Shown one piece after another: positions 1,684-31,708 of a stretch of 33,404 bases of DNA. The stretch comes from Fibrobacter sp. GTDB taxonomy: Bacteria; Fibrobacterota; Chitinivibrionia; Chitinivibrionales; Chitinispirillaceae. The stretch spans positions 1-33,404 of the forward strand of contig JAAYIG010000188.1 in the NCBI GenBank assembly GCA_012523595.1, given 5' to 3'. The position numbers were made by a program, and so were the translations under genes. Every line of letters begins with the position of its first letter. The first letter of the stretch is position 1. Under the pieces are notes generated by a model, which saw nothing but the letters and a program-made list of their open reading frames with translations, was not told where the DNA came from and did not search any database.

Positions 1684-1689
1684 ACAAAA

Positions 1690-2868: not shown

Positions 2869-2990
2869 CACTATTGTTCCTTGAAAAATGCAGGGTTTTC
2901 ACAAGAATTCAAAAAAAGTTCCTATATACAATGAAAAGTGGAGTAATTCTGAGAAAAGTATTATTTTTTATAGTTCTAAATGTTACCATA

Positions 2991-3004
2991 AAGGAGAAAG
3001 CTTG
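2991..3004 (+). promoter_or_regulatory. Ribosome binding site with TTG start for the Wza-type gene
   Basis: AAGGAG at 2991-2996 stands 5 bases before TTG at 3002-3004. Starting here gives a protein that opens with a clean signal peptide ([19 protein letters not shown]). The in-frame ATG at 2888 would add 38 mostly polar residues ahead of it and has no comparable binding site. The 130 bases between the divergent genes must hold the promoters, but none was clear enough to call. Confidence 0.7.
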
Positions 3005-4597: not shown

Positions 4598-4608
4598 ATG
4601 ACCCATTT

Positions 4609-5211
4609 ATGGAAACAACAATTCCGGATCAGCATCGTGAAATTCCCGTTTCATTTTTCAAGAGAGTAAGAACATCAGTCTCATCATTTGCATACTTTCT
4701 AAAGCTGTATACCGCAACTTGTATTGGAAATATACCCTCTCATTTTATCAGAAAGTCCTTTTACCGGCATGTACTTGGAATTAAGGTACCTGATGATTCT
4801 ATAATTTACTGGAAAGCCAGATTCTTTGGACCATCCGGAATAAGTATCGGCCATAATACCATAATTGGAAATGATGCATTTCTGGATGGACGAGGAGGTC
4901 TTTCAATTGGAAACAATGTCAATATAGCCGGAGAAGTACGCATTTACACAATGGAGCATGATATTAATTCAGATTCATTTGCAATTACCAGTGGCCAAGT
5001 TATCATTGAAGATTATGTCTATATCGCCAGCCGTGTTACAATAATGCCTGGCGTTTGCATCGGAGAGGGTGCAGTTGTTGCTTCTGGCGCAGTGGTGACC
5101 AAAGATGTGGAGCCCTGGACACTGGTTGGAGGAGTTCCAGCAAAACCTATTAAAAAAAGGCCTGTAGTCCGTTACGTGCTAGACACTAAAACCAAAGTAC
5201 TCTTCCAGTAA
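4609..5211 (+). CDS. Hexapeptide-repeat acetyltransferase (WbbJ/maltose acetyltransferase type)
   Basis: A 200-residue left-handed beta-helix acyltransferase, probably O-acetylating a sugar of the exported polysaccharide with acetyl-CoA. Hexapeptide repeats run from about residue 80 to 180 ([62 protein letters not shown]). The loop TMEHDIN holds the probable catalytic His. The ending [12 protein letters not shown] is typical of the NodL/LacA/WbbJ group. The N-terminal 70 residues are specific to this protein. It lies 11 bases behind the export gene with a weak AAGGAA site. The acceptor cannot be deduced. Confidence 0.85.
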
Positions 5212-15700: not shown

Positions 15701-15724
15701 CGGCTGATAAGCCCGGTGGAAGGT

Positions 15725-18700
15725 ATGAAAAAGACAGTCTATAAACTCTTGAGAAGAGGCGCACTCATGACAGGAATTATTCTTGTCTTGTGCCCGGACT
15801 GTCTATTTGCCGCCAGGTCAAAAGATGAAAGCGACGAGTGGCGAATCAGGGAAAACCTGACAACAAGACTTGGATCGGAATGGTATAAGATCGGAGTTCT
15901 TTCCAGAGAACTGTCGGCTATTGCCGATGTGCTTGCTGAGATCCGGGACCTTGGCCTCTTCCCTCCTGAGTTGACCGGTCTTAATGAAGAGAGCATGAGT
16001 CAGCTTAACACACGTGCCATGGAAATCGAGAAGAAATATGCTTCTCTTCTTTCAGAGGTGGAAGCATTCAAGCCCCCTCTTAACGATGCTATAGAGATAC
16101 TGCGTGAGATGGTCGTTGGGGAGCCTGTAGAGAGCATGTTTGAAACACTTGAAAAGGGTGATATGAAACGGATCACCCAGATGCTCGATGTCAAGCACAA
16201 TATTGACAGCCTTTGGAACAAAAGCGATTCCCTGCTCAACTTTGTAATGAGGAAGCTTGGACTCGGTTTCAAGAAAGAAAGCAGCAACGGACCAATTGAG
16301 GAGGAGTTTTTCGAGATTCTTAAAGCCAATCTCGGATTACAATCTGAGCAGTATTATCAGAAGCTCAATTATATCAAAGATCATCTTGCGTCAAAAAGCA
16401 GCAAAGACGATCTGTTTAAAATGTACCAGGTTGAGAAAGACAGAATTCACAAATATCTTCAGGAGAACAAATTAAACCTTGCTCATCAAAAGCTTGTCAT
16501 CCTTTTAAAGCGTTTTGAATCCGGGATGAATGTGGATGAATTATATAAACTGCTGGCCCGGGTTCATTTTCTTAAAGGTGAATACAATGATGTGCTTTCC
16601 ATAATGGTCAAATTTCCTGAAAGTGAGCAGACATCAAAAACCTTATACAGAATGCAGTGTCTTTACGCATTGAGAGATTACGAGAGACTCTGGAGTGAGG
16701 GAAATTCCATAGATTTCTCCGGCCTTAAGGGCAGCAGGAAGAATCTTCTGTTATGGATTGTGCTGGAGAGTGGTCTAGCACTCCAAAAACAGGATAATTT
16801 TCTCAAGCTGGCATCACTGGTTGACAAGACTGCATCATATTCGCTTCATGTGATGCATGCTCTTGCCCGTTCCTACCTTCAGATTGGCGATAAGGCAACA
16901 GCACTTTCAATTATGGAAAGTACCTTAAAGTACAAAGTTAACTCACCTGAGGATGCTTTTGCTTTCCGTGAAATCAATCTTGCTGTAGCACAACTTTATT
17001 ATGAAATAGGCAATTATAAAAAGGCACTCTCTCTTTTTTACAACATTTTAAACGACAAGAAAGATTTTGACCGGGCCATGTTCGGTATTCTCTGGTGCTA
17101 TATCCGACTGGGCCAGGATGACAAAGCTGAGACTGCTCTTCGCAAACTGATAAACCAGGCACCGGAATCACCTCTTGGAGCAGAGGGAATTCTAATTTTA
17201 GCTGAGAAGAATCTCTATAAAGCCGGATATGACTGGAAAAAAATCGTTTACCTCAAAAAAGAGGAACAGCGTCTAATGCAGATGCTTGAGAAGATTTCCA
17301 GAAAAGAGGTTGTAGAAAAATCTAAAGAAAACGCCCAGAAGTACGCCTATGCCCGTCGGGAACTGACCACTCTTTTAGGCAGACTTCATCAGGAGAAATG
17401 GCCGGATTACAAATCTATCAATGAATCCTACAAAAAAGTTGAGAGGATTTGTAACCTGTTAAGCAAACATTACAAAACCGGTTCTTTTCAGGAGAAAGCA
17501 TTTTCTCCCGATCGTGAACGCCTGCTTCATTATCTCGATTCTCTTATACTGGAAGCAAAGGGTAAACATTCGGAGGCGGTCGGCAGTCCGATGCTGTCCA
17601 ATGCCAGGCAGATCCGTAACCGTATAAAGAATATTGTTGATAAATCTGCTGTTTTCTCTACAGTGGCCGCGATTGATAAATTTAACTGGGAAAAAGAGTA
17701 TATCGACTGGGAGAAAGCCCTTGTAAAGCAGAGAGAGCTTAAGCTGGGCGAGATGATTGCTGAAACATCTGATTCCACACTCAAAAAGAGCTACATGGAG
17801 GAGAAGCAGATTTGTTCATCCAGAATTGATTCTCTTCTGGTTAAAGAGGACAGTATTTCCAGAATGCATTTCAGTAAACTTACTGAAGAGCTTCCTGCCA
17901 TTTTAAGCACCCGTCTGGACAGTGCTGATGAATCCTATTTCAGGTATCAGCTTGGTGAACTCTATTATGCCGAAGAGAACAAGAAGTATACAGCGGATTA
18001 TGAGAGATATGAAAAGGATCTTGCGGAATATAACAGTAAACTTGATGAATACAGGGAAGGGAAGCTTCTTAAGCCCCCTGTGGCTCCCGATCAACCCAGG
18101 TTGAATCATGACAGGAGTATCGAGCAGTTCAGAGCTGTTATCAATGGATATCAGAAATCGGAATTTATTCCCTCAGCCTATTACAGTCTGGCCTGGTGTT
18201 TTAATGACTTATCAATGCTTGACAGCGCTCTTTATTATATGGAAAACCTTGCTGCACTTTATCCAACAAGCGTCCATACTCCTCAGGCCTGGATGTACTG
18301 CGGGGAGTATAATTTTGACAGAGGTGAACTTGACCAGGCCATAAAGTGTTATCAGGCAACGATGAGATATCCGGAGAGCGAATGGTTTGATGAGGCTCTG
18401 TATAAACTTGCCTGGGCCCAATATCGCCTGTCAAATCCTGAGAAGGCAATCAGTTCATTTCTGGCACTGGTAAGTCTCGGCGAATCCGGTTCGGCAAAAC
18501 GGCCGGCGCTGCTGGAAAAAGAATCTATGGATTATATAGCTATCAGTTTCAGTGAAACTGACCTTACAGGCGATAAAGGTCTGCAGAGAGCTCTCTCGTT
18601 TATCAAGAAGCTGGGCGATATCAAGAAAGGCTGTCAGATCCTGCATCGTCTTGGTACTGTATACAGAGACCAGGGGCGGACAGATATGGCCAAAAAGACA

Positions 18701-19216
18701 CTTACAACACTGCTGAAAACATATCCCAACTATGAGAAAAATCCTGTTGCTGAATCTGATTTGCTCGCAATTAAAGAACGTGAGATCGGTATCGAGGAAA
18801 CCAACCGGATAAAGATAGATTTTTACAGGAAATACAATCGTAACAGCGCCTGGGCAAAATCACAGAATAATGAAGTAAAGGAACAGGCAGACAGTGTCGC
18901 TTCAAAGCAGCTTTATGAGGGAGCAATCGGATTCCATCAGTATGCGCTGCAGAAAAATGACAGCAGTATTTATTCCTCGGCACTGGAAGCATATAGTGAA
19001 TTCATTTCAGCCTACCCGGAATCTCCACAGGCAAATGAGTGTCACTACAATTTCGCAGAGATCAAATTTTCATTGGGGAATTATGCGGAAGCTGCAGAAG
19101 AGTATATGGCAGTTTCCAAACGATATCCGGACAGTAAATACAGAGAAACTGCCGCATGGAACGCCATCGTGGCATCTCAGAACCTGCTGAAACAGGAAAA
19201 TGCAACAACGCACTGA
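15725..19216 (+). CDS. Large periplasmic TPR-repeat scaffold protein
   Basis: A 1163-residue exported protein. A signal peptide (MKKTVYKLLRRGALMTGIIL, cleavage near LFA-A) is followed by a helical region and several TPR groups, clear at about 240-480 (LARVHFLKGEYNDVLSIM, LYYEIGNYKKALSLFYNIL) and 830-940 (YYSLAWCFNDLSMLDSALYY, EALYKLAWAQYRLSNPEKAI). A last pair lies near the end (ANECHYNFAEIKFSLGNYAE). Charged coiled coil fills the middle (about 560-800). An upstream in-frame GTG at 15716 lacks a binding site; ATG 15725 has GGTGG 5 bases before it. Giant TPR proteins of this kind (GltC, GltD and GltE-like) build the periplasmic part of Myxococcus gliding complexes, which fits the neighbours. 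Confidence 0.85.
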   Translation: MKKTVYKLLRRGALMTGIILVLCPDCLFAARSKDESDEWRIRENLTTRLGSEWYKIGVLSRELSAIADVLAEIRDLGLFPPELTGLNEESMSQLNTRAMEIEKKYASLLSEVEAFKPPLNDAIEILREMVVGEPVESMFETLEKGDMKRITQMLDVKHNIDSLWNKSDSLLNFVMRKLGLGFKKESSNGPIEEEFFEILKANLGLQSEQYYQKLNYIKDHLASKSSKDDLFKMYQVEKDRIHKYLQENKLNLAHQKLVILLKRFESGMNVDELYKLLARVHFLKGEYNDVLSIMVKFPESEQTSKTLYRMQCLYALRDYERLWSEGNSIDFSGLKGSRKNLLLWIVLESGLALQKQDNFLKLASLVDKTASYSLHVMHALARSYLQIGDKATALSIMESTLKYKVNSPEDAFAFREINLAVAQLYYEIGNYKKALSLFYNILNDKKDFDRAMFGILWCYIRLGQDDKAETALRKLINQAPESPLGAEGILILAEKNLYKAGYDWKKIVYLKKEEQRLMQMLEKISRKEVVEKSKENAQKYAYARRELTTLLGRLHQEKWPDYKSINESYKKVERICNLLSKHYKTGSFQEKAFSPDRERLLHYLDSLILEAKGKHSEAVGSPMLSNARQIRNRIKNIVDKSAVFSTVAAIDKFNWEKEYIDWEKALVKQRELKLGEMIAETSDSTLKKSYMEEKQICSSRIDSLLVKEDSISRMHFSKLTEELPAILSTRLDSADESYFRYQLGELYYAEENKKYTADYERYEKDLAEYNSKLDEYREGKLLKPPVAPDQPRLNHDRSIEQFRAVINGYQKSEFIPSAYYSLAWCFNDLSMLDSALYYMENLAALYPTSVHTPQAWMYCGEYNFDRGELDQAIKCYQATMRYPESEWFDEALYKLAWAQYRLSNPEKAISSFLALVSLGESGSAKRPALLEKESMDYIAISFSETDLTGDKGLQRALSFIKKLGDIKKGCQILHRLGTVYRDQGRTDMAKKTLTTLLKTYPNYEKNPVAESDLLAIKEREIGIEETNRIKIDFYRKYNRNSAWAKSQNNEVKEQADSVASKQLYEGAIGFHQYALQKNDSSIYSSALEAYSEFISAYPESPQANECHYNFAEIKFSLGNYAEAAEEYMAVSKRYPDSKYRETAAWNAIVASQNLLKQENATTH

Positions 19217-19235: not shown

Positions 19236-22232
19236 ATGTTTTCCAGGATATGCTCAGTCCTGTTTTACAGAGGAATTCCCTTATTGCTATCAGGTTTTTT
19301 ACTGGCTGGCTGTGTCAGCAGCGGCAGTAAAGTTTCTTCCATAAAAATACCCGATTCCAGGCAGCAGGCCGATTCTCTGTCACAGACACTGTCCGACAGT
19401 TCAAAGGCAGTATTCGAGCCTGTCGAAAACACCAAGTCCCCGGCGAGCGGCCTTTCTCCCGCTTCCGAACTTATGATTAGGGCTTGTGACAATTACATCA
19501 GCATCAATCCAAACACGTCAAAAACCGCTGAAGTTTTCACTATCAAGGCATCACTACTTTACAATAACAGAAAATTCGAGCAGAGCCGGGCTGTATACGA
19601 AGAGATAATAAGCAGATTTCCCGAGAGTCCAAACGCGCTGGATGCCACAAAGATGATAGCTCAGGCCTATTATGAAGAGAAAATGTTCGACAAGGCTCAG
19701 GAATGGTACAAAAAGCTGAGCAGTGTTGCTGTTGACGGTGTAGACAAACAGGAAGCATTGACCAGAATCGCCGAGTCGATATTCAGGATGGCAGAGAGCT
19801 TCGAGGAACAGAGTCGTTTCAAGGATGCGGCGACACAGTATGAGCGTGTAGCTCTTGAATATCCCGAATCCAAAATAGCCGACATCGCCCTGTTTAATTC
19901 AGGGTTGAGTTACGAGAAGCAGGCAGAATGGTCTCATGCTATTCTGGTTTTTCAGCGGTTACTTCAAAAATACAGTAATTCAGAACTTCTCCCTAAATCT
20001 CAGTTCCGAATTGCGAAATGCTATGAAAAACTGCTTCAATGGGATCTTGCAGCGGAAGCTTACCTGAAAGTCACTGCCAACTATCCGAAATCTGAACTTG
20101 CTTCTGTTTCCCTGTATAATGCGGCTTTCTGTTTTGAAAATGGAGGAAAGCTGAAGGAGGCAGGAGCGGCATTTGAGAAAATGGCCCAGGTTTTTCCTCA
20201 GTCCGAGGACGCAGCGGATGTGCTTTTCAGGGCTGGTGAGATTTATGGAAAAATCAAGGACTGGGCAAGTGTCGCCAGAGTCAATCAGATGTTTTCCGAG
20301 AGATTCGGTAATGATGAAAACAGGGTTGTGCAGGCTCTTTGCATGACCGGAATCGCCTTTTACATGCAAAACAGGGAAAAGGAAGCTGTAATTCAACTGG
20401 AAAAAGCGATTTCAACGTTCGCGAAACTTAAAAACCCCAGTACCATGAATCAGTTTTATGCCGCCAAAGCCATGTTTACTATTGGAGAAATCAGGCATAC
20501 TGAAATGAATAATATTTCACTCAGCAGCGCTCGACAACTTTATAAGAAGCAGCTCGGAGAAAAATCCGATCTGCTTGACAAAGCGCTTGAGTGCTATACC
20601 CGGGTTATAAAGTTCAATATCTCCGAGTGGACAACCCGCTCGATTTTCCAGATTGGACAGGTCTACGAGGACTTTGCTCTTGGGATATTCAAACAGGAGC
20701 GTCCCTCTTTCGGATCAATTGAGGAAAGGATAGCCCTTGAGCTGGGTATAGCACAGGCAATCGAGAACTATTTCATCGATAAAGCCGTGCATTATCACGA
20801 GCAGAATGTCAAGCTTGGCATAAAAGAGAAGATAGAAGACAAATATGTCATGCAATCCCGTGATAAATTGACATATCTTCCATATGCCGCCGGGGAGAAC
20901 TATCTATCACTTGTAGAGATCGCCCGAAGCACCGGAGAGAAAGGACGGCTTGAGGGTTTCGCACTAATAGCCCGTAAGCTTCAGATGCTTCAGAAGATCG
21001 CTCCATTTCAGGAAAAAGCAATCGATCTGTTCCTCAAGTGTCTCGAACTTGGCAGTACTTATCAGGAGTTCAGTGAATATTATAAAAAAGCCAGTAGCAG
21101 CATAACCGGAGTATCCTTTGTTGTTGGAGAAACTTACAGTGATGTTGTCAATATAGCCAGAGATGCTCCTATCCCGGGAAATTTCGATGCATACGAGCGA
21201 TTTATCTACCAGACCAAGCTTCTTAAGCAGATCGAGGGATATGAGGATCAGGCTTTGACAAATTACCTTAAGGCTGTTAAAATCGCAGAAGCCTATAAAC
21301 TGGACGATCCCAGTGTCAGGGATTCTCAAAACAGCATCGCAAAACTGCTCTTTAACAAGGCCCGGTGCATGGATCTTCTGTGTGAAACAGCTTTCAAACG
21401 CCCGCCGTTTCCCGCCGGTATAAGCGAGGCTGAAAAAGAGGAATACAAAGTGAGATTCGAGGAGATCGGACTTAAATTCCAGGAACAGGCATTTGAAATA
21501 TACAAAACAATCCTCAATTTTACATCTCAGAAATATGCTGCTGGCGATTATGTCACACATGCTTATGTCAGACTTTTCCAGAATTTCCCTGAAGAATATG
21601 GTTCAAAGGAAGATCAACTGGTCCAGTCCTCGATCAGTTCAGGATCACAATGGAGATGTACTTCTGATTCTTTAAAAAACTGGCAGGGATTCGACACCTC
21701 TGATTCCACCTGGGCAAAAGCCCAGAAAGCTTTTTTCAGTGAAAAGCCATTGGTTACAGGTTTTCCCGGTAACAACGCTCCTCTTCCGATGTGGCTTGGT
21801 TCAGGTAATCCCGAGGACAGCGTGAATTACAAGCCCTTTAAAGAGGTGTTTTTCAGAAGGTCCTTTACTATCGCAGAAACCCCGCACTCCGCCACTCTCT
21901 ATTTGTCATCAGGAGGACCGGTCGAGGTTTATTTTAATGGTGATTTACTGGCCCGCGATACCTCATTAACACTTGCTGCCAAAGCGCTTTCCTGGGATCT
22001 GATGGGGAAAATCAGGAAAGGCAAAAATGTCATTGCAATCAGAGCAATAAGCAGGGATGAAACCAGCAATGGAGTATTCCCTTTACTTTTGATGTCAGTT
22101 GGAACAAAAGTTTCTCTTCCCAAACCACCAGGTTTCAATAAACCGCTCGCTGCGGAAGAGGTCAGGGAGGATGTATATAAATTCCCGTCGATAAAGAATT
22201 TCAGCCCGGAACAGAAAGAGGTAAAGTTATGA
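19236..22232 (+). CDS. TPR lipoprotein with C-terminal galactose-binding-like domain
   Basis: A 998-residue lipoprotein. The lipobox LLAGC ends at Cys26 and the next residue is Val, so outer-membrane sorting is expected. TPR repeats follow at about 85-380 (FEQSRAVYEEIISRFPES, KDAATQYERVALEYPESK, LKEAGAAFEKMAQVFPQSE), then a long helical region. Residues about 872-957 look like a beta-sandwich of the galactose-binding type: RRSFTI, ATLYLSSGGPVEVYFNGDLL and GKNVIAIRA, the pattern seen in sugar-binding domains of family 2 glycosidases. This could bind the secreted polysaccharide or peptidoglycan, which is inference. It starts 19 bases after the scaffold gene and overlaps the next gene by ATGA. 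Confidence 0.85.
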   Translation: MFSRICSVLFYRGIPLLLSGFLLAGCVSSGSKVSSIKIPDSRQQADSLSQTLSDSSKAVFEPVENTKSPASGLSPASELMIRACDNYISINPNTSKTAEVFTIKASLLYNNRKFEQSRAVYEEIISRFPESPNALDATKMIAQAYYEEKMFDKAQEWYKKLSSVAVDGVDKQEALTRIAESIFRMAESFEEQSRFKDAATQYERVALEYPESKIADIALFNSGLSYEKQAEWSHAILVFQRLLQKYSNSELLPKSQFRIAKCYEKLLQWDLAAEAYLKVTANYPKSELASVSLYNAAFCFENGGKLKEAGAAFEKMAQVFPQSEDAADVLFRAGEIYGKIKDWASVARVNQMFSERFGNDENRVVQALCMTGIAFYMQNREKEAVIQLEKAISTFAKLKNPSTMNQFYAAKAMFTIGEIRHTEMNNISLSSARQLYKKQLGEKSDLLDKALECYTRVIKFNISEWTTRSIFQIGQVYEDFALGIFKQERPSFGSIEERIALELGIAQAIENYFIDKAVHYHEQNVKLGIKEKIEDKYVMQSRDKLTYLPYAAGENYLSLVEIARSTGEKGRLEGFALIARKLQMLQKIAPFQEKAIDLFLKCLELGSTYQEFSEYYKKASSSITGVSFVVGETYSDVVNIARDAPIPGNFDAYERFIYQTKLLKQIEGYEDQALTNYLKAVKIAEAYKLDDPSVRDSQNSIAKLLFNKARCMDLLCETAFKRPPFPAGISEAEKEEYKVRFEEIGLKFQEQAFEIYKTILNFTSQKYAAGDYVTHAYVRLFQNFPEEYGSKEDQLVQSSISSGSQWRCTSDSLKNWQGFDTSDSTWAKAQKAFFSEKPLVTGFPGNNAPLPMWLGSGNPEDSVNYKPFKEVFFRRSFTIAETPHSATLYLSSGGPVEVYFNGDLLARDTSLTLAAKALSWDLMGKIRKGKNVIAIRAISRDETSNGVFPLLLMSVGTKVSLPKPPGFNKPLAAEEVREDVYKFPSIKNFSPEQKEVKL

Positions 22233-22519
22233 TAAAGCCGGCCCTCTTTTTTCTCGTTCTCATTTGTGCAATTTGCAGCTATGGATCTCCTGGTGCTCCA
22301 GATACAGAATCTGACAGTGTTGAAGAACAGGGATACAGAATCGAGCAGCCCGGTACGATCACTTTTACTGTAGGTGTGAAAATAAAAGGTAAAGTTGAGA
22401 AACCCCAGGTGATGATTTTTCTTCCAAAAGAAAAGACAGTGTACAGGGAAATAAAATTTGAGAGATCATTTCTTGAGGACCTGGCGGACCCGCTGCCGTT
22501 TACGCCTATAATAGAATAG
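22229..22519 (+). CDS. Small exported protein of unknown function
   Basis: A 96-residue protein with a signal peptide (MIKPALFFLVLICAICSYGS, probably signal peptidase I; no proper lipobox). The mature part of about 75 residues includes a beta segment ITFTVGVKIKGKVEKPQVMI and a terminal proline-rich ADPLPFTPII. It resembles no family I can name. Its start overlaps the TPR lipoprotein stop (ATGA), so it is produced together with it and may cap or connect the complex in the periplasm. A 145-base gap with a possible promoter follows before the motor genes. Confidence 0.7.
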   Translation: MIKPALFFLVLICAICSYGSPGAPDTESDSVEEQGYRIEQPGTITFTVGVKIKGKVEKPQVMIFLPKEKTVYREIKFERSFLEDLADPLPFTPIIE

Positions 22520-22664: not shown

Positions 22665-23297
22665 ATGGAAGCGATAGCCCGATGGTTTCAGGAGGGTGGA
22701 GTATGGATGTATCCTATCGCGGCTGTTTCGGCATTTGCGTTTGCAGTTGTGCTGGAGAGACTTTACTTTTATTACATTCACTGCCGTATCGACGCCAAAG
22801 CTCTTCTGACACAGATTACCCGTCTTGTGCGTAACGGTGAGATTGAGCAAGCCAGACAGATCTGCGCTAAAACAAAGACTCCGCTTTCTGCAATTCTGGA
22901 GTCTGCTCTCTGGCATTATCAGCAACAGGAGCCTGATCAGGAGATTCAGAACGCAGTGGATGAAGTTGCTTTAAGAGAACTGCCCCGCATCCAGCGCAGA
23001 ACTCATTATCTTTCCCTTTTCGCAAACATTTCCACTCTGTTGGGTCTTCTGGGTACAATTTTCGGTCTTCAGCAGGCATTTGGTGCACTTGCGGCAGCAG
23101 ATCCCTCACAAAAAGCTGTAGTACTTGCAAAAGGTATCGCGATCGCTATGAACACAACGGCATTGGGACTGATTGTAGCGATTCCATGTATGATTATGTA
23201 TTCGATAATGGGTTCCAAATCAAACACCATTATCGAGGAGATCGATGAGAGTTCAGTCCGGCTTTTAAACTTCCTTTTCGCCCAGCGCAGATCCTGA
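22665..23297 (+). CDS. MotA/TolQ/ExbB-family proton-channel protein
   Basis: A 210-residue inner-membrane protein with three helices: about 15-38 (MYPIAAVSAFAFAVVLERLY), 118-142 (SLFANISTLLGLLGTIFGLQ) and 158-183 (MNTTALGLIVAIPCMIMYSI). The TLLGLLGT and MNTTALGL-AIP segments are the conserved pore helices of the TolQ/ExbB/AglR group, with the threonines kept. The binding site AAGGAGGAG is the strongest in the window, suggesting high expression. It would form the pentameric stator around the two ExbD-like proteins encoded next, using proton flow to drive movement or load transport across the envelope. No tolA, tolB or pal is adjacent, arguing against a standard Tol system. Confidence 0.93.
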   Translation: MEAIARWFQEGGVWMYPIAAVSAFAFAVVLERLYFYYIHCRIDAKALLTQITRLVRNGEIEQARQICAKTKTPLSAILESALWHYQQQEPDQEIQNAVDEVALRELPRIQRRTHYLSLFANISTLLGLLGTIFGLQQAFGALAAADPSQKAVVLAKGIAIAMNTTALGLIVAIPCMIMYSIMGSKSNTIIEEIDESSVRLLNFLFAQRRS

Positions 23298-23310: not shown

Positions 23311-23817
23311 ATGGCTGACATAGATGTTGACAAGATTATGGACAAAGCTTTTCCTGCCACAAAGAGAGCCAACAAGTCGGTCAGTAAAGAGATAGAACTG
23401 GTTGATCTGGATGTGACACCGGTGATGAATCTTTTTATGGTGCTTATCCCTTTTCTTGTTTCCATGGCAGTATTCACTCATATCGCAGTAATAGATTTCT
23501 CTCTGCCGCCCGCACAGGGTACAGCAGGCGAGGCAACAGAATCCAAGGAACTGGATATCTCCATAGTGGTTACAAACGAAGGATTCAGGATAGTGGGTAC
23601 CGGCAAGAAACTGGATCAGGTCCCCAGAGTTCAGGGGCAGTATCAGTTTGAACAGTTAAGGGTTCTCCTTAAAGCAATCAAGTTCCAGTACCCGTCACAG
23701 AAAAGTGTTGTACTTGTTCTGGAGTCAGAAGTTCTATATGATGACATAATCAAGTTCATGGATGTATGTCGTGAATCACAATTTCCTGACATCGGCTTAT
23801 CAGGAGATGTAGGATGA
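23311..23817 (+). CDS. ExbD/TolR-like protein 1, with Asn in place of the proton-carrying Asp
   Basis: A 168-residue protein with one membrane helix (about 36-58) and a periplasmic domain, the ExbD/TolR plan. The helix begins LDVTPVMNLFMVLIPFLV. Aligned by eye to the family pattern TP-x-x-D-V-x-x-x-L-L, residue 40 is Asn where ExbD and TolR have the essential Asp. The cytoplasmic N-terminus is long (about 30 residues, basic). The periplasmic part keeps the beta-rich ISIVVTNEGFRIV and KSVVLVLESEVLYDDIIKFMD pattern. It starts 13 bases after the TolQ-type gene and overlaps the STAS gene by ATGA. It is probably an inactive partner in a heterodimer. Confidence 0.88.
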   Translation: MADIDVDKIMDKAFPATKRANKSVSKEIELVDLDVTPVMNLFMVLIPFLVSMAVFTHIAVIDFSLPPAQGTAGEATESKELDISIVVTNEGFRIVGTGKKLDQVPRVQGQYQFEQLRVLLKAIKFQYPSQKSVVLVLESEVLYDDIIKFMDVCRESQFPDIGLSGDVG

Positions 23818-24140
23818 GTATAAGACTCAAAATAAAAAAATTCAGATCCACTCCTGTGCTGGAGATAAACGGTGAAATCACAGGAGAAAATGTGGGTAAG
23901 ATCACAAAGAAGCTTGAGAATCTGAGAAAGGCAGAATCTGAGAAAATAGTGGTAGATCTGAGCAAGACGACATTTATAGACAGCCATGGATTGGGTGCAT
24001 TTGTGTATCTCTGGCGGCTGCTTGAGGAGCAGAAGAGGGAATTGGTTTTTTTAAATCCGCAGGGATTCATCAGGAGCTTATTTACCGGTACAAATCTGGA
24101 CAAGATATTCAGGGTAGTCGATTCAGAAGAGGCAATATGA
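23814..24140 (+). CDS. STAS-domain protein (anti-sigma-factor-antagonist type)
   Basis: A 108-residue single STAS domain: VLEINGEITGENVGKI, VVDLSKTTFIDSHGLGAFVY, and a last helix. The conserved loop reads Asp56-Ser57-His58-Gly59. In SpoIIAA the equivalent loop is D-S-S-G and the second Ser is the phosphorylation site, so the usual phospho-acceptor appears to be His here. Ser57 could still be modified. The gene lies between the two ExbD-like genes with ATGA overlaps on both sides, so its product is made with the motor. No serine-kinase (SpoIIAB/RsbW) gene or sigma factor is nearby. A structural or regulatory role on the cytoplasmic face of the motor is plausible but unproven. Confidence 0.9.
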   Translation: MSIRLKIKKFRSTPVLEINGEITGENVGKITKKLENLRKAESEKIVVDLSKTTFIDSHGLGAFVYLWRLLEEQKRELVFLNPQGFIRSLFTGTNLDKIFRVVDSEEAI

Positions 24141-24655
24141 GTTTTCCTGCATCAAAATCCTCCCTCAAACGCTTGCGCAAAACGAGGGGAAAAGGACAGA
24201 TAAAGGCTTTCAAACCCCAGCTTACATCTCTGGTTGATGTGATGACTATTCTTCTAATCTACCTTCTCCAGAGTTTCTCTTCAGAAGGCGAGATCATCAC
24301 CATATCCAAAGAGCTGGATCTTCCTGAATCCAGCGCACAGAAAAAACCCGAACTGAGAGTTACTTTAATTGTCAATAATAAGTACATACTTGCTGAAGAT
24401 CAGAAGGTAGCAGATGTTCCTGAAGTGCTTGAATCCGATGAACTGATTATTCCCGGCCTTTACAGTTGGCTTGGGAACCGGAGGGCGGCGACTGAAAAGA
24501 TCGGGCAGTACTCCAGTAAAACCAAATTCAAGGGTGAGATTACGATTCAGGGTGATAAAAAGATCCGTTTCCGCCTCATAAAGAAAATTATGTACACCTG
24601 CGGACAGCAGGAGTTCAATAATTTTTCTCTAGCTGTAAGGAAACGAGGAGAATAA
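24137..24655 (+). CDS. ExbD/TolR-like protein 2, with the conserved Asp
   Basis: A 172-residue ExbD-type protein: basic cytoplasmic start (KRLRKTRGKGQIKAFKPQ), one membrane helix (about 30-48, LTSLVDVMTILLIYLLQSF) and a periplasmic domain. Asp34 sits at the essential proton-carrying position. It is the only one of the two ExbD-like proteins here that has it. The periplasmic part includes PELRVTLIVNNKYILAED and ends IRFRLIKKIMYTCGQQEFNNF, the usual fold. The ATG overlaps the STAS stop. With the TolQ-type protein and ExbD-like 1 it parallels the AglR-AglQ-AglS motor (one TolQ, two TolR) of Myxococcus. Confidence 0.88.
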   Translation: MSFPASKSSLKRLRKTRGKGQIKAFKPQLTSLVDVMTILLIYLLQSFSSEGEIITISKELDLPESSAQKKPELRVTLIVNNKYILAEDQKVADVPEVLESDELIIPGLYSWLGNRRAATEKIGQYSSKTKFKGEITIQGDKKIRFRLIKKIMYTCGQQEFNNFSLAVRKRGE

Positions 24656-25699
24656 GTGGTGAGTAATACCGATAACGCTTTTATTGCCGGAAGCAGCGGC
24701 AGGTTTATTATTGACAACCGCTCTTTGAGGCAATTGCGTGGCACACCTTGGAGAAAAATCGATCTTCGTTTTTTCCTTTTAGCACTTTTGTCTATTCTAA
24801 TCCATTCCGCCCTGATTTACTACACAAACAAGATAGAGGTAAAGAAGGTGGAAGTAGTAATCGAGGAGATACCTGAGCGTTTCGCACGCCTGATAATTGA
24901 GAAACCCATCCCAAAAACAGAGAAAAAAGCCACAGGAACTGCTGCAGGTCCCGCAGAAACGAAGGTCGAGACAGAGCAGAAGTCCTCTGAGGTCAAATCT
25001 TCTGCGCCTGTCAGTCGTGCACAGGCTCAGAAATCTGTTCAGGCAAGGACAGCACGGGTAGAGGAAAAGATCCGGACTGTTGGAGTTCTGGGGATGCTTA
25101 CAGGTGTGGGCACAACTGCCAAAGGGCCCTCGGTTGTTGATGTACTCGGCTCGATGAAAGACCGGAAGGAAAAATTCACCGATCTTGATGCCGCTCTGGC
25201 CAACATGAGCGGACTTCAGAAGACACAGGAGGTTGACGTCCTCAACCGGAAACTGGTGAAAAGTAAGGACCTGGTTGTTTCCCACAGACAGGAAATAGAC
25301 GATCTGATCGCAAATGTCGGTGGTGCCAAAACAATGGAGCTGGCAAAAAAAGGTGAATTTCTGATCCAGCGGCCTGAAAGTATCGAGGGAGCCGCATCAT
25401 CGGATGCCAAGAGAGATTCTGACGTGATAAACTCCGTAGTGGCATCTCATAAAACAAGTATCAGGATGAGCTATGAAAAGTATCTCAAGCGTGATCCTTC
25501 TCTATCAGGAAAAATAACTGTCAGGTTCACCATTTCAGCATCAGGAAGTGTTACGATGGTCAAAGTACTGGAGAACACAACCGGAAATACCGAGCTTGAG
25601 AACGAAATAATGAGAAAAATAAAAATGTGGCAGTTTGAACCGATTGCTGAGGGAGATGTTACGGTCTCCTATCCATTCGTGTTTATGACTGCCGGTTAA
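24656..25699 (+). CDS. TonB-like energy transducer with AgmX/PglI-type C-terminal domain
   Basis: A 347-residue protein. A short cytoplasmic start is followed by one membrane helix (about 40-58, FFLLALLSILIHSALIYY). A Lys/Glu/Ala/Pro periplasmic linker follows, then a segment VGVLGMLTGVGTTAKGPSVV, then a TonB-type domain (about 258-347: VASHKTSIRMSYEKYLKRDP, LSGKITVRFTISASGSV, VTVSYPFVF). The YEKYLKRDPSLSGKITV pattern is characteristic of the AgmX/PglI C-terminal family from Myxococcus adventurous motility proteins. GTG 24656 follows GAGGAG by 5 bases; GTG 24659 (spacer 8) is equally possible. It probably transmits motor motion to periplasmic TPR or outer-membrane parts. Confidence 0.88.
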   Translation: MVSNTDNAFIAGSSGRFIIDNRSLRQLRGTPWRKIDLRFFLLALLSILIHSALIYYTNKIEVKKVEVVIEEIPERFARLIIEKPIPKTEKKATGTAAGPAETKVETEQKSSEVKSSAPVSRAQAQKSVQARTARVEEKIRTVGVLGMLTGVGTTAKGPSVVDVLGSMKDRKEKFTDLDAALANMSGLQKTQEVDVLNRKLVKSKDLVVSHRQEIDDLIANVGGAKTMELAKKGEFLIQRPESIEGAASSDAKRDSDVINSVVASHKTSIRMSYEKYLKRDPSLSGKITVRFTISASGSVTMVKVLENTTGNTELENEIMRKIKMWQFEPIAEGDVTVSYPFVFMTAG

Positions 25700-25730
25700 A
25701 TAAAAGCGGGATCTACCCTGCGAGGCTTTG

Positions 25731-26624
25731 ATGCTTAAGATATTCAGAGCAATAGTGTTTCTGGCAATTATCAATCTTCCGTTGTACGGAGCGATTATCA
25801 GGGCCGGCCACGTAATTAACATTCAGGTGATGTCCAACCCTGAGTTTTCCGGACAGTACATTGTGAATGAAAACGGTACAATTGAGTACCCTCTGCTAGC
25901 CGATCAGATCATAACAAACATAACCACATCCGAACTGATGAATGAACTTACTTTGAGACTCGCACGACATATAGACAACCCTCTTGTTCTGGTATCAATT
26001 GTCGAGAAACCGGAAATTACTCTTACAGTTCTGGGGCAGGTTCTAAACCCAGGTCCGGTGAAGGCTATTCAGGGGGCTACCATACAGGAAGCAATAAAGC
26101 TTGCTGGTGGAGCGCTGGAGAAAGCTGATCTGTCCCGTGTTAAAATTGTCCACAAGGGCAATCCCAGCTCCGAGGAAGTTTATGATTTGTTAAAATTCAT
26201 GGAGGAGGGAGAACTGGAAACCATGCCCAAGCTGGAAAACGAGGACATGGTGGTAGTCCTTGCCCAGGAGCGATCAAAGAAAGTCAAGGTTATCGGTTCG
26301 GTTCAGAAGCCCGGGCTATTTGATCTTGAAGAAAAAATGAATGTGTTCGAAGTGATTTATCTTGCCGGAGGGCCGGTAGAGAAGGCGGATTTGACAAAAG
26401 TAAGGAGAATCTCCCATCACGAAAACTCAAAGGCCGTTGAGGAGGTCCTCGATATTCAATCTTATATCGATAAGGGGCAGATGGAACAGATACCTGCTGT
26501 TTACGAAGGTGATATCATAATTGTCTATTCCAAATGGTATGACTGGAAGACAATACTTTCGATTTTGAACAATACACTGCTTTTTATTGTTACGATTCAG
26601 ACCTTTGCCAATCTTTTTAAATAG
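25731..26624 (+). CDS. Second Wza-type polysaccharide export protein, compact form
   Basis: A 297-residue export protein. A signal peptide (MLKIFRAIVFLAIINLPLYG) precedes a Poly_export domain (IRAGHVINIQVMSNPEFSGQ to NPLVLVSIVEKPEITLTVLG). Two SLBB repeats follow (VLGQVLNPGPVKAI with LAGGALEKADLSRVKIV, and VIGSVQKPGLFDLE with LAGGPVEKADLTKVRRI). It ends in a hydrophobic helix (ILSILNNTLLFIVTIQTF) like the outer-membrane helix of Wza. It is about 230 residues shorter than the paralog at 3002-4597. ATG 25731 is chosen, with GAGG 5 bases upstream; a TTG at 25728 is also in frame. Wzc follows after 2 bases, the standard export pair. Confidence 0.9.
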   Translation: MLKIFRAIVFLAIINLPLYGAIIRAGHVINIQVMSNPEFSGQYIVNENGTIEYPLLADQIITNITTSELMNELTLRLARHIDNPLVLVSIVEKPEITLTVLGQVLNPGPVKAIQGATIQEAIKLAGGALEKADLSRVKIVHKGNPSSEEVYDLLKFMEEGELETMPKLENEDMVVVLAQERSKKVKVIGSVQKPGLFDLEEKMNVFEVIYLAGGPVEKADLTKVRRISHHENSKAVEEVLDIQSYIDKGQMEQIPAVYEGDIIIVYSKWYDWKTILSILNNTLLFIVTIQTFANLFK

Positions 26625-26626
26625 AT

Positions 26627-28789
26627 ATGACTTCAATATCAATAGAGAAGTTTCAGACAAACACCGGGTTTAAAGACTATCTTGCGGTTATATTCCGGAG
26701 GCACTGGATAATACTCCTCTCATTCTTAAGCGTCTTTCTCTCGACAATCTATTATGTATTTCAGATCGAAGATATATACGAATCATCTTCCACACTGGTC
26801 ATAGAGGAGCATAGTGCCGTAGTCAATCAAATGATAAATGTTAACAGAAATCTCAGTTTTTACGAGGGTATTCTTGCCAGCCGTACTTTTCTGCAGTCTG
26901 TGCTTGACAGTATAGGGATGAATAATTTTGAACGCGTTTTTCCCAGAATTACGAAAGACGAGGCGCTGAAGTATATCCAGAACAGTCTCTCCCTTCGTAA
27001 AACTACCTTTACATCGTTTCTCAATCTGGTTGCACGCGCCAAAACAAGTGACCTTGCTTATCAGATCTCTTTTAAAGGGACCGAAATATTCCGTACCCGT
27101 TGTCAGGAGGTTGCCAGTGAGGAGTCGCGCAGGGCTCTTTTTGAGATTGAGAAACAACTGGAACTTATAAGGAAAAAACTGGAAACCGCGGAGCAGGATT
27201 ACCGGACATTCAGTGATAAGACCGGTCAAATTCATGAGGGGACAACACCAGAGCTCAAAACACTTCAGGATGCTTACGCAAGCGGTCTGGCTCAGATCGG
27301 ACTAAAGCAGGCTGATCTCGATGCTGAAAAGAAACAGCTCACCAACCTGGAGCGCAAATTTACTCCTGCAAGCAATATGCGTTCACCGGAGTACTCCCAA
27401 CTGAGGGCAAAATTAAGCGAGCTGGAAAAAGAGAGGCTGCGTCTTGAGGGTCTTGGGATCAGACTGGCGGGTGTATCCACAATTGACAGAGAGATTCAGG
27501 ATATAGAGAACCGTCTGCTCGAGTTCAAACAGACCAAGAGCAGCAGTCCGATAGATCCGGCAACAATGCGTCAGTGGCAGGAACTGCGTAAATCGGTTTT
27601 GACCAAAGAGGGGGAGCTTGAGCTTTTCAAGCGGCGTCTCGAATCTTATGAAAAAGCAATTAAATCCTACAAAGCAGGAAATCCTGATATTCTCTCTCAT
27701 TCACTGGAGCTGCTCAGACTTAAAAGAGCCAAGGAGATTTACGAGAATGTCTATAACATTCTGCTTGAAAAAGCAGAAGAACAGAGAATCAGGAGTGCAT
27801 CAAGTTCTGCCGGTATAAAGATTGTGGATCTTCCAGTAAAGCCACGGGATCCGATTCCGAAGAATGAGACAAGATTTTACCTGCTTGGCGCATTTCTGGG
27901 GCTTGCGCTTGGCCTGGGGCTGGCTTTTCTTATTGAGTTCAATGATACCACTATTAAAAGCAATGATGACATCGAGAGATATCTGGGCCTTTCGGTCCTT
28001 GGGACAATTCCCCATATAGCCCACATGAAGAAAAACGAAGTAGAGCTCCGCCGCCGCTCATCAATATCCCGAAAAGGCACCTCTGTACTCCATTATCCCA
28101 GACAGGTCTTTAATTTTGAAGGTGATGATTCTGTTACGACAGAATCTTACAGATCCCTGAGGACAAATTTATCATTTGTAAGTCCTGACAAACCTCTGAA
28201 AACAATTGTCCTTACTTCCGCAGGTCCGTCTGAAGGAAAATCTCTGACTATCTCCAATCTTGCAATGGCGTATGCTCAGATGGGAAAGAAGACTCTTCTT
28301 ATCGACACAGACCTGCGGCGTCCGGTACTCCACCACATCTTCAATACCAAACGAGAGCCTGGCTTTACTGATCTTTTCATGGGGAATCCCGATTACGACC
28401 GCGTTACCAAATGCACCGAGAAAGACAACCTTTTTCTGATCTCAGCAGGAATGTTCACCCCCAACCCGGCCGAACTGCTGGGTTCTAACCGTATGATTCA
28501 GATTATTGATTATTTCCGCAACCATTACGACATAGTATTTTTTGATACTCCACCGATTGTAGCCGTGACAGATGCAACGCTTCTGGGTACTAAAATGGAT
28601 GGACTTCTGATAGTAATCAAATCTCACCATACCGACCGGGATATCGCACTCAGAGCGGTAAACACAGTACGCAATGTTGGCGTGAGAATACTTGGAGCGG
28701 TTCTTAATGATATTAATCTTTCACATCGGTATTCCAGTTACGGATATTACAAATATTACTACCATTATTACAAATCGAAAAAAGACTAG
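26627..28789 (+). CDS. Wzc-type bacterial tyrosine autokinase / polysaccharide co-polymerase
   Basis: A 720-residue inner-membrane protein that controls polymer length and export. The Wzz domain has helices at about 25-45 and 425-445 with a long coiled coil between. The cytoplasmic BY-kinase domain (about 500-710) shows Walker A GPSEGKS, Walker A-prime LLIDTDLRRP, Walker B FFDTPP, and a C-terminal tyrosine cluster of nine Tyr within 15 residues (YSSYGYYKYYYHYY). This is the single-polypeptide form typical of Gram-negatives. Cyclic phosphorylation of the tail should alternate assembly with the export protein encoded just upstream. No phosphatase of the Wzb type is in the window. Confidence 0.95.
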   Translation: MTSISIEKFQTNTGFKDYLAVIFRRHWIILLSFLSVFLSTIYYVFQIEDIYESSSTLVIEEHSAVVNQMINVNRNLSFYEGILASRTFLQSVLDSIGMNNFERVFPRITKDEALKYIQNSLSLRKTTFTSFLNLVARAKTSDLAYQISFKGTEIFRTRCQEVASEESRRALFEIEKQLELIRKKLETAEQDYRTFSDKTGQIHEGTTPELKTLQDAYASGLAQIGLKQADLDAEKKQLTNLERKFTPASNMRSPEYSQLRAKLSELEKERLRLEGLGIRLAGVSTIDREIQDIENRLLEFKQTKSSSPIDPATMRQWQELRKSVLTKEGELELFKRRLESYEKAIKSYKAGNPDILSHSLELLRLKRAKEIYENVYNILLEKAEEQRIRSASSSAGIKIVDLPVKPRDPIPKNETRFYLLGAFLGLALGLGLAFLIEFNDTTIKSNDDIERYLGLSVLGTIPHIAHMKKNEVELRRRSSISRKGTSVLHYPRQVFNFEGDDSVTTESYRSLRTNLSFVSPDKPLKTIVLTSAGPSEGKSLTISNLAMAYAQMGKKTLLIDTDLRRPVLHHIFNTKREPGFTDLFMGNPDYDRVTKCTEKDNLFLISAGMFTPNPAELLGSNRMIQIIDYFRNHYDIVFFDTPPIVAVTDATLLGTKMDGLLIVIKSHHTDRDIALRAVNTVRNVGVRILGAVLNDINLSHRYSSYGYYKYYYHYYKSKKD

Positions 28790-28799
28790 TGGTTTTTAA

Positions 28800-30605
28800 A
28801 TGTCTACCAGAGCTGAGCGCTCTTTCTCACAGGAAAAATTCCAGTCAGGCCAGTGGAAAACACGCAAGGTTTCCATCAGACCAGGCCTGCTTCGATCATT
28901 CGCTGATTTCATCTCTCTGAAACGCAAAGGTGTCGACCACCTTGCATCCAAGTGCTTTTCCTTTCATAAAGTGGTAGATTTCGGCTGTGGAACCGGTGCT
29001 TACAGCAGGTGGTTTATTGACAGATCCCGATCTACAGTTCTGGCAGTAGACTGGTCAATAGAGGCATTGAAATCTGCCCGGTTGAATGATAATTCCGGAA
29101 AAGTGATTCCTGTCTGTGCAGATTTACATCTTCTGCCTTTCAAGCACGAATCTATTGATGCTCTCTTTTCTGTTGATGCTCTCGGTCATCTCTCTAACCA
29201 GGAAAGAGCTCTCGATGAAATATCAAGAATTTGCAGACCCGGTGCTCAACTTTTCCTGCACAGTGAATGCGGAGATTACAGAAAAAGGTGGCCCGATAAT
29301 ATTCTTCTGAAAAAAAGTGGAATCGATTACCTCGCCAGGCTGGACGGGCATTTTTCAATCCGCCAGTCCAGTGAACTTCATGCTTCACTTTGCAGACGAT
29401 TTGAGGTGAACAGGTCCTGCAGTCCTGCCGGTATTTTTGGATGGATTCTTGGATACCCGGAGAAATACCGTCTGGCATTTAAACATGCCCGTTTCCATCT
29501 TCTGTTCCTTCTTACATCTTTTTTTACACTGATAAAAAAGCTTCCGCTTGCAGGTCTGATATTCAGACTCTTAAACTCCATAACAAATAAAATAGAGGTG
29601 ATCTGCGGAATCGAGGGGGGGGGATCATTCTTTGCCCATGCCCGTAAACCATACAAAGAGGTCTCTTTTTTCCATAGTGACAATTTACCAGTTGATATAA
29701 TAATTCCTACCTACAAACGATCGGATTCAGTCTCAAAGACAGTTGATTTGATCCATAAACAATGCCGTCCCGGGGATTTCCTGTATATAGTCTGGCAGGG
29801 TGATGAGCCTCCGGTGGTACCGGTTTCAAACCAGGTACGCCTTCTCTACTCTCCCACACCAAATCTTCCACTGGCCCGTAACACTGGATTAAAAGCAGGG
29901 TTCAATCCTGTGGTCATTTTTCTCGATGACGATATAATACCTGATGCCAATCTGATTGATATGCACAGGAGATGCTACCTTGATAAGTCAATAGGAGCCG
30001 CAGCAGGTTTTACAGATGACCCTGTATTCGAAGGCAAAGCAGAAACACCTCCATGGTTTGATATCATAAATGGTGAAATACATCAGAATTTCTCGCTCTC
30101 CAAAAGCCAGTATGTAGTGAGTTTAATGGGCGCCAATATGTCTTTCCGGAGAGATGTATTGGCAGATATCGGTGGATTTGATGAGAATTTCAAGCACAAT
30201 GCTCTTTTTGAAGAAGTGGACTGTGCTTTCAGAGTGATGAAAGCAGGGTACAAAATCTGGTACTGCGCTGAAGCCAGACTTACTCATCTGCACAATAACA
30301 GTGGCGGATGCAGGTCAGATAAAAGATACAGATATCTTTTTCACAGCTTTGCAAACACAGCGTACTTTCTGTGCAAATATTCTCCCCGCAAATCTGCTCG
30401 TTCATCGACTAATTTCTGGAAATATCGTTTGGAGTACCTCTCAAGAAAACCCTTAAAAATCAATTCCAGCAAAATGAGACACGATCCATTTGCAGTTATT
30501 GCCGGATTATGCGGAGCCGGTGCTGGTCTTGCCAGGTTCTTTCTTTATGGAAAAAGAATCGGGCTTCCTTCTCAAATCCTGGAAGAACAGGAATCCTGCA
30601 AATGA
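28800..30605 (+). CDS. Methyltransferase / family 2 glycosyltransferase fusion
   Basis: A 601-residue two-domain enzyme. Residues about 10-210 form a class I SAM-dependent methyltransferase (VVDFGCGTGAYS at 58-69, acidic VLAVDWS, SVDALGHLSN). A helical or membrane-associating linker lies at 215-270. Residues about 297-560 form a GT-A glycosyltransferase: VDIIIPTYKRSDSV, Asp-Asp-Asp at 376-378 in IFLDDDI, and LMGANMSFRRDVLADIGGFD with FEEVDCAFRV. The N-terminal part may methylate, and the C-terminal part transfer, sugars of the exported polymer. A run of nine G at 29615-29623 codes for part of the linker and is a slippage risk. Overlaps the next gene by ATGA. Confidence 0.88.
   Translation: MSTRAERSFSQEKFQSGQWKTRKVSIRPGLLRSFADFISLKRKGVDHLASKCFSFHKVVDFGCGTGAYSRWFIDRSRSTVLAVDWSIEALKSARLNDNSGKVIPVCADLHLLPFKHESIDALFSVDALGHLSNQERALDEISRICRPGAQLFLHSECGDYRKRWPDNILLKKSGIDYLARLDGHFSIRQSSELHASLCRRFEVNRSCSPAGIFGWILGYPEKYRLAFKHARFHLLFLLTSFFTLIKKLPLAGLIFRLLNSITNKIEVICGIEGGGSFFAHARKPYKEVSFFHSDNLPVDIIIPTYKRSDSVSKTVDLIHKQCRPGDFLYIVWQGDEPPVVPVSNQVRLLYSPTPNLPLARNTGLKAGFNPVVIFLDDDIIPDANLIDMHRRCYLDKSIGAAAGFTDDPVFEGKAETPPWFDIINGEIHQNFSLSKSQYVVSLMGANMSFRRDVLADIGGFDENFKHNALFEEVDCAFRVMKAGYKIWYCAEARLTHLHNNSGGCRSDKRYRYLFHSFANTAYFLCKYSPRKSARSSTNFWKYRLEYLSRKPLKINSSKMRHDPFAVIAGLCGAGAGLARFFLYGKRIGLPSQILEEQESCK
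29615..29623 (+). repeat. Poly-G tract (G9) inside the fusion gene
   Basis: Nine consecutive G encode Gly273-Gly275 with flanking bases, exactly between the methyltransferase and glycosyltransferase domains. It is the longest G run I noticed in the window. Gain or loss of one base would truncate the product after the methyltransferase domain. Confidence 0.8.
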
Positions 30606-31708
30606 GAGTGGTGTGGATTTATCCCAAAATTGAGCGCTGCGGAATTTCAATTCATGCCCGTCACTACATCCATGCCCTGAAAAACCATCTGGACATTTTG
30701 GAAATTGACACAGATGATTTTTACTCAGACAACCGGCAGAACATCCAATTACTGGATTCCGCCGATCTGGTGCATCTTCAGTATGAATCATCTTTTTTCC
30801 TAAAAGACAGGAATGATTTTTTCCTCAGAACACTGAGCAGAATCAATAAACCGCTACTTGTCTCTCTTCACGAGGTTTACCGGGAATTTCCGGGAGTATT
30901 TGCGAGAAGCAAAATTTCGGGACCGTTGTTTTTACGGGTGATCCGGAGACTTATTTACGATTACAGACACCCCGCACAGACCGCTTACAGAAAGCATCTT
31001 GGAAAAAACTTCGGGGCTGACCTCGTTCTCGTTCACCATCATTACCACAAGAAGATACTTACAGAAAGTGGAGCTGATCCTTCCAAAATAGAGGTACTGG
31101 CACTTCCAGTAAAGATTTCCAGTGAATCTATTCCCTTTAAATGGACATCTGATCATGAAATCCACCTGGGGTCAACTGGTTTTATAAATCCTCAATTTAA
31201 CTATGATCTGCTTTTTTCAATACTCAAAAAACTTGACAAGAAATGGCGTTTCACATGGATCGGAGGGATTAGAAATTCTGAACAGCAGGAATTATTTAAC
31301 CGAATCATGAGTACCTTAAACCAGAACGGATGGGATAATCAATTCAGAATAACCGGATGGGTCAGTGAGGAAGAGCAGAGCAGATTTTTAAAAGAGCTCG
31401 ACATCTACATGGCGCTTTTCTCAAACCGTGCATCATCTGCGAGTCTTAATCGGGCAATCGGGGCTCTTATACCAATTATTGCAACTCAACTTCCTCTTAC
31501 TGAGGAAATCAACTCCCCGCACTGCAGTCCTCTTGTTGTAATTCCACCTGAGTGTGAATCTGCCATAGATGCGATCAATTCAATTTTGACCCGGAAAGGT
31601 TTCAGAGAAAAACTGCTGCAAAATGTTGGGAAATATGCGGAAATCCACAGTTACAGTGCCATGTCTTTAAAACTGGTTGAAATTTACAGGGGATTATCAG
31701 CAAAATGA
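30602..31708 (+). CDS. Glycosyltransferase, GT-B fold (GT4-like)
   Basis: A 368-residue protein. The N-terminal half has VVWIYPKIERCGISIHARHY (donor/acceptor loop) and VHLQYESSFF. The C-terminal half carries GSTGFINPQFNYDLLFSIL, FTWIGGIRNSEQQELF, and RITGWVSEEEQSRFLKELDI, the usual nucleotide-sugar half of GT4 enzymes. The region where an E-x7-E motif is expected is divergent (SLNRAIGALIPIIATQLPLTEE), so classification is tentative. The ATG overlaps the fusion gene stop; an upstream frame from 30509 only duplicates that gene. It would act in the cytoplasm, adding one sugar of the repeat unit. Confidence 0.8.
   Translation: MRVVWIYPKIERCGISIHARHYIHALKNHLDILEIDTDDFYSDNRQNIQLLDSADLVHLQYESSFFLKDRNDFFLRTLSRINKPLLVSLHEVYREFPGVFARSKISGPLFLRVIRRLIYDYRHPAQTAYRKHLGKNFGADLVLVHHHYHKKILTESGADPSKIEVLALPVKISSESIPFKWTSDHEIHLGSTGFINPQFNYDLLFSILKKLDKKWRFTWIGGIRNSEQQELFNRIMSTLNQNGWDNQFRITGWVSEEEQSRFLKELDIYMALFSNRASSASLNRAIGALIPIIATQLPLTEEINSPHCSPLVVIPPECESAIDAINSILTRKGFREKLLQNVGKYAEIHSYSAMSLKLVEIYRGLSAK

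Follow-up and report, generated by a model that had tools for sequence, protein, structure and literature searches.

An asymmetric ExbD pair with a single proton-site aspartate is conserved in AglRQS-like gene cassettes

The window, i.e., the whole stretch of 33,404 nucleotides of Fibrobacter sp. DNA analyzed here, carries a set of predicted membrane motor genes preceded by two genes encoding large TPR proteins. The features of the locus are the following:

15716..19216, + strand: large TPR protein of 1166 aa, upstream of the motor (TPR families)
19236..22232, + strand: large TPR protein of 998 aa with a lipoprotein-like N-terminus (TPR families, YbgF/BamD-type matches)
22229..22519, + strand: 96-aa protein whose N-terminal part includes a hydrophobic stretch, encoded after the TPR genes and before ExbB (open reading frame)
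22665..23297, + strand: ExbB/TolQ/AglR-like pentamer subunit (Pfam MotA_ExbB, E 2.5e-27; residue mapping by PDB alignment; column statistics)
23311..23817, + strand: ExbD1, ExbD/TolR-type subunit of 168 aa (Pfam ExbD, E 6.7e-14; alignments, model and fold match)
23814..24140, + strand: STAS-domain protein of the anti-sigma-factor-antagonist type, between ExbD1 and ExbD2 (Pfam STAS, E 7.4e-18)
24137..24655, + strand: ExbD2, ExbD/TolR-type subunit of 172 aa with Asp34 at the proton-carrying position (Pfam ExbD, E 1.7e-13; alignments)
24656..25699, + strand: predicted GltG/TonB-like force transducer with an AgmX/PglI-type C-terminal domain (NCBIfam NF033768; TonB_C)

From ExbD1 through the GltG-like gene, each reading frame either overlaps the next or directly adjoins it, as would be seen in a translationally coupled operon, and the STAS frame overlaps those of ExbD1 and ExbD2 by 4 bases on each side. 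The start of the 96-aa frame overlaps the end of the preceding TPR gene, and a Pfam search gave no family match for its product. The protein encoded by the last gene matched NF033768 with 97.6 bits (cut-off of 40) and GltG in part, with 96.4 bits, which is under the full-length equivalog cut-off of 650. Polysaccharide genes flank the motor on both sides (positions 304-5211 and 25728-32790) and include Wzy_C, Wzz, two SLBB export proteins, a Wzc-like kinase, and glycosyltransferases.

The two ExbD-type proteins, ExbD1 (DLDVTPVMNLFMVLIPFLV) and ExbD2 (PQLTSLVDVMTILLIYLL), scored 52.5 and 51.1 bits, respectively, against the ExbD/TolR family (PF02472), above its curated cut-off of 25.4. The first-pass annotation had placed Asn40 of ExbD1 and Asp34 of ExbD2 at the family position that carries protons, and the alignments bear this out. 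A phmmer comparison with PDB sequences put Asn40 on Asp25 of Escherichia coli ExbD in an ungapped block ("dldvtpvmnl" in ExbD1, "DINVTPFIDV" in E. coli ExbD), and Asp34 of ExbD2 fell on the same residue in the PDB alignment. The codons are AAT (23428-23430) for Asn40 and GAT (24236-24238) for Asp34. Hence ExbD2 has a protonatable Asp in its transmembrane helix whereas ExbD1 has none, which leaves one for the pair. The same annotation described known motors as having two Asp-bearing subunits, in agreement with the structures and reviews consulted. It also raised the possibility of an alignment shift that would move Asp34 of ExbD1 into the proton site; this was rejected, since that residue lies on Asn19 of ExbD, six residues upstream.

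In the AlphaFold2 model of ExbD1 (mean pLDDT 74), a transmembrane helix (residues 36 to 61) with Asn40 close to its N-terminal start and Pro47 within it is followed by a beta-alpha periplasmic domain. The best PDB matches of the model were TolR (5by4) and ExbD (8pek). Compared with its homolog at locus L014, ExbD1 showed 79 synonymous and 23 non-synonymous codon changes, revealing purifying selection. Asn at the proton site was also common to all the STAS-type orthologs that we saw. This conservation and the purifying selection on ExbD1 rule out that Asn40 is a sequencing error or a sign of pseudogene decay.

We surveyed 250 distinct ExbB-ExbD1-ExbD2 cassettes. They were obtained with an ExbD1 profile from Fibrobacterota, where 165 of the 168 genomes of the phylum had ExbD1-like matches, from 274 evenly sampled Gammaproteobacteria, with a strong match in about 59, and from 193 Myxococcota. 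The fourth source consisted of named genomes retrieved by searching for the ExbD2 motif as a GC-rich DNA pattern, in which the ExbD2 Asp is therefore present by construction. The gene order was constant, and the residue at the ExbD1 site was Asn in 127 cassettes, Asp in 108, Ser in 7, Gly in 4, Ala in 3, and Cys in 1. The ExbD2 site was Asp in 250 of 250 cassettes when the pattern-found set is included, and in all 142 cassettes from the three ExbD1-profile sets. The non-acidic member, present in 142 of the 250 cassettes, was always ExbD1; neither the reverse arrangement nor a pair with both sites non-acidic was found among the 250. The asymmetry noticed in the window is thus real, its active and inactive roles are never swapped, and the single-Asp pair is a conserved property of the family, not an accident.

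In the ExbD1-profile sets, ExbD1 was non-acidic in 79 of 79 cassettes of Fibrobacterota, 34 of 35 of Gammaproteobacteria, and 1 of 28 of Myxococcota, the latter being limited to the best matches. Orthologs with Asp at residue 40, which the first-pass annotation had named as counter-evidence, do exist, but only outside this branch, in Myxococcaceae-type AglQ homologs; they account for none of the 79 Fibrobacterota cassettes. In this phylum the ExbD1 site varies between Asn, Gly, Ala, Ser, and Cys beside a constant Asp in the partner ExbD2, as expected if the ExbD1 site no longer carries protons. By record title, non-acidic pairs occur in Fibrobacterota, Pseudomonadota, Myxococcota, Thermodesulfobacteriota, Bdellovibrionota, and Fermentibacterota; a record titled Acidobacteria was left out of this tally, as it groups with gammaproteobacteria in the tree. 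Four loci (L160, L117, L144, and L194) likely come from misnamed bins: a "Klebsiella pneumoniae" MAG has a myxobacterial-type cassette, and titles of Acidobacteria, Deltaproteobacteria, and Myxococcales among the four stand over gammaproteobacterial-looking cassettes.

The genome of the window has 9 ExbD-type matches. Its Tol and Exb systems are ordinary, and two further ExbB-ExbD(Asn)-ExbD(Asp)-TonB cassettes lie on contigs C97 and C105. ExbD1 of the C105 cassette (L010:6800-7585) and its relatives carry a periplasmic insert of about 90 residues, and in Fibrobacter-type genomes ExbD1 has an even longer insert (about 300 aa in total). In one Fibrobacter-type locus (L074, 2347-5383), the order is TPR-ExbB-ExbD1(Gly)-ExbD2(Asp)-TonB. 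In 18 cassettes, each of the Asn type, a STAS gene separates ExbD1 from ExbD2, and its product may be a regulator of the motor. The Ser of the DS.G motif known from anti-sigma-factor antagonists is retained in at least 11 of the 18 STAS proteins.

A natural fusion was found in 17 cassettes of Fibrobacterota (L060:1695-2978 on the + strand, also L059, L077, and L300-L314): a linker of about 25 aa connects the C-terminus of a second ExbB to the non-acidic ExbD1, whose site holds Asn in 16 of them and Gly in 1. A free ExbB gene adjoins the fusion wherever the stretch reaches that far, and ExbD2 then follows. Fusion to ExbB places ExbD1 in the ExbB complex. A hetero-pentamer of one fused and four free ExbB subunits is possible and would hold exactly one ExbD1. 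In an AlphaFold2 model of a fusion, the ExbD1 helix was of low confidence.

The loss of the ExbD1 Asp goes with changes elsewhere in the pore. In the window, Thr131 and Thr165 of the ExbB protein correspond to Thr148 and Thr181 of E. coli ExbB, the Thr pair of the proton path, which is invariant in the 173 ExbB sequences compared, suggesting that the channel is functional. Ile160 sits where ExbB has Glu176, a position that is acidic in 84% of Asp-type and 3% of non-acidic cassettes; at position 164, Thr predominates among the non-acidic cassettes, and the Asp-type ones have Asn or Cys. In ExbD1, a Pro seven residues after the site (+7) was found in 135 of 142 non-acidic proteins and in none of 108 Asp-type ones. 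An acid six residues before the site (-6), where Asn is usual in the Asp type, was found in 98 of 142 and 0 of 108, respectively, and was kept even where the site itself is Gly or Ala. In the other 44 of the 142, to which about half of the proteins from gammaproteobacteria belong, -6 is Asn or Lys and the site is still Asn. The stretch from -5 to +13 around the site contained no other acidic residue in any of these 142 proteins. One Myxococcaceae cassette type (L162, L170, L105, L126, and related loci) has Lys at the Glu176 site of ExbB and Asp in both ExbD proteins.

On a tree built from ExbB and ExbD2, with ExbD1 left out, the Asp-type and non-acidic cassettes are intermingled, the state having switched 3 to 5 times, and a single clade of Asp-type cassettes was rejected (AU p 2e-5). 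The linked changes accompany these switches, and the raw percentages given above partly reflect shared ancestry. When phylogenetically independent pairs were compared for ExbB positions 160 and 164 and ExbD1 positions -6 and +7, nearly all the pairs that differed did so in the same direction; the test of co-evolution was not significant because only 3 to 5 such independent switches are available.

The closest studied relative is the AglRQS system of Myxococcus xanthus, which moves slime and spore-coat polysaccharide (PMC3858216). In that species aglR, aglQ, and aglS are each required for sporulation, and the D28N change in AglQ abolishes proton conductance, motility, and sporulation (PMC3858216). 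The need for each of the three genes and the effect of D28N alone suggest that the two ExbD-type subunits are not interchangeable in M. xanthus. It follows that the normal residue of the window is the one that paralyzes M. xanthus when placed at the same position; Asn is not simply tolerated there, a point against a single-site motor, and the non-acidic family must compensate for it. AglQ and AglS have both been described with the Asp (PMC9389320); this is true of Myxococcus, whereas most of the cassettes surveyed here from Fibrobacterota and gammaproteobacteria depart from it. The first ExbD of Myxococcus has Asp at the site in two cassettes, at residue 28 counted from the ATG in one (173 aa) and at residue 29 in the other (162 aa, the published length of AglQ), and either cassette is a candidate for AglRQS. 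The idea that AglS could be the Asn subunit of M. xanthus was not supported, as both ExbD proteins of each candidate cassette have Asp. Loci L229 and L230 of Myxococcus, used as an outgroup, encode two canonical ExbD proteins (both NVTPLVD) after one ExbB.

The working motor could consist of five ExbB and a homodimer of ExbD2, i.e., a 5:2 complex with two Asp, and ExbD1 would then be a degenerate paralog acting as a regulator, a plug, or a cell wall anchor, outside the pore or in non-conducting complexes. ExbD2 retains every canonical feature, ExbD1 lacks the Asp and has a helix-breaking Pro, and the literature states that the choice between homo- and heterodimers of AglQ and AglS is undecided (PMC9389320). 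We nevertheless consider this arrangement rather unlikely, since ExbD1 is always there, adjoining and preceding ExbD2 in the paired cassettes, and the fusions tie it to ExbB. The pore changes of ExbB that go with the loss of its Asp would also be unexpected if it never entered the pore, and its counterpart in Myxococcus, AglQ, is a channel subunit with an essential Asp (PMC3858216). An improbable alternative is that the proton site has been relocated, so that the acid at -6 (Asp34 in the window) is a second, cytoplasm-facing carrier and two sites remain. The 98 ExbD1 with this acid make relocation possible in part of the family, which counts against a single-site motor. On the other hand, the 44 with Asn or Lys at -6 lack such a residue, and -6 precedes the transmembrane helix in the model and lies on Asn19 of ExbD, not facing the Thr pair.

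Two other explanations would change the nature of the complex or of the residue. The complex could be a non-conducting envelope tether or a signaling complex of motor origin, in which the ExbD2 Asp is kept for other reasons. The STAS regulatory protein between the ExbD genes of the window would suit such a role, and motor function is only predicted. The invariant Thr pair and ExbD2 Asp over deep divergence argue instead for retained proton transfer, and we give this explanation little credence. Conversely, a symmetric motor could be restored by post-translational deamidation of Asn to Asp. Asn is indeed the commonest replacement (127 of 142), but Ser, Gly, Ala, and Cys are also found in related cassettes. 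Moreover, the fast-deamidating context is Asn-Gly, and the site is surrounded by MNL or MNV, which makes deamidation very improbable.

We therefore regard as the more probable reading that the window encodes a force-transducing motor resembling AglRQS, with 5:1:1 stoichiometry and only one protonatable site, in which ExbD1 is a structural partner. The retention of ExbD1 as a full-length ExbD under purifying selection supports this motor. In the inner membrane, an ExbB/AglR pentamer would surround one transmembrane helix of ExbD1 and one of ExbD2, and protons would pass via Asp34 of ExbD2 and the Thr pair, with no proton carried at the ExbD1 site. Force would be passed to the GltG/TonB-like protein and from there, by analogy with the Agl system, through the large TPR proteins to the outer membrane or the surface. 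We infer the presence of both subunits in one pore, and with it the stoichiometry, the proton count, and the motion. With one active site, a full turn would take about five protons instead of ten; alternatively, five proton-driven steps could each be paired with a passive one, or the motor could perform a two-stroke swing. A directional or lopsided rotor, as proposed in the first-pass annotation, is speculation. The tether of the fusions would hamper continuous rotation of ExbD1 against its ExbB, which is a point against the rotary reading. Only tentatively do we extend the proposal to a widespread class of single-site motors with an obligate active/inactive heterodimer, in one branch of which the tether would limit the motion to a swing or ratchet instead of continuous rotation. 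As to the surface task, the neighboring polysaccharide genes and the likeness to Agl-Nfs lead us to guess that it could be the moving or anchoring of envelope polysaccharide or of an adhesion complex; these genes fit a surface-polysaccharide output and prove nothing.

That Fibrobacter and gammaproteobacteria possess the AglRQS-Glt core complex is already known, as their copies have been placed in this "core complex" family (Luciano 2011). In a search of openly readable papers, we found none that describes an Asn-bearing ExbD, a pair with a single Asp, the ExbB changes that go with it, or fusions of ExbB with ExbD1; a paper on tonB in Teredinibacter deals with different clusters. Structures and reviews of 5:2 motors take two Asp as standard, with ten ions and 36-degree steps per turn. 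A family of predicted one-Asp motors, present in at least six phyla by record names, offers a direct test of the two-Asp assumption in ExbBD, TolQR, and MotAB, for which the two-Asp motors of Myxococcus are a close comparison and the fusions a ready handle on stoichiometry. In Fibrobacter succinogenes, the ExbB, ExbD, ExbD, and TonB genes FSU_2400-FSU_2403 are raised on cellulose and were read as a TonB import system (PMC6851124). This cluster could possibly encode a machine that exerts force at the surface and not an importer.

In a comparison of gene order, the F. succinogenes cluster matches the window and corresponds to the C105 cassette. Unlike the window, this type has no STAS gene between the ExbD genes, and its ExbD1 has a large periplasmic insert. 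With AglRQS and Glt/Nfs, the window shares an ExbB-type gene followed by two ExbD-type genes, a TonB-like GltG partner, and TPR proteins. The Myxococcus type differs in that its AglQ-type first ExbD keeps the Asp (D28), as does AglS, while the first ExbD of the window has Asn; its ExbB has Glu or Lys at the 176 site, where the window has Ile160, and the helix of its first ExbD has no Pro, where the window has Pro47. The 5:2 motors ExbBD and TolQR of E. coli have in common with the window a homologous pentamer with transmembrane-helix subunits, the Thr pair, and the periplasmic fold. However, they rely on one ExbD or TolR gene, giving a dimer with two Asp, and on Glu176 in ExbB, whereas the window has two diverged ExbD genes and one Asp. 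GldLM/PorLM, implicated in type IX secretion and gliding, is also a proton-driven 5:2 motor, covered in the same review as AglRQS (PMC9389320), but it belongs to other protein families, without clear sequence homology, and uses two identical GldM subunits.
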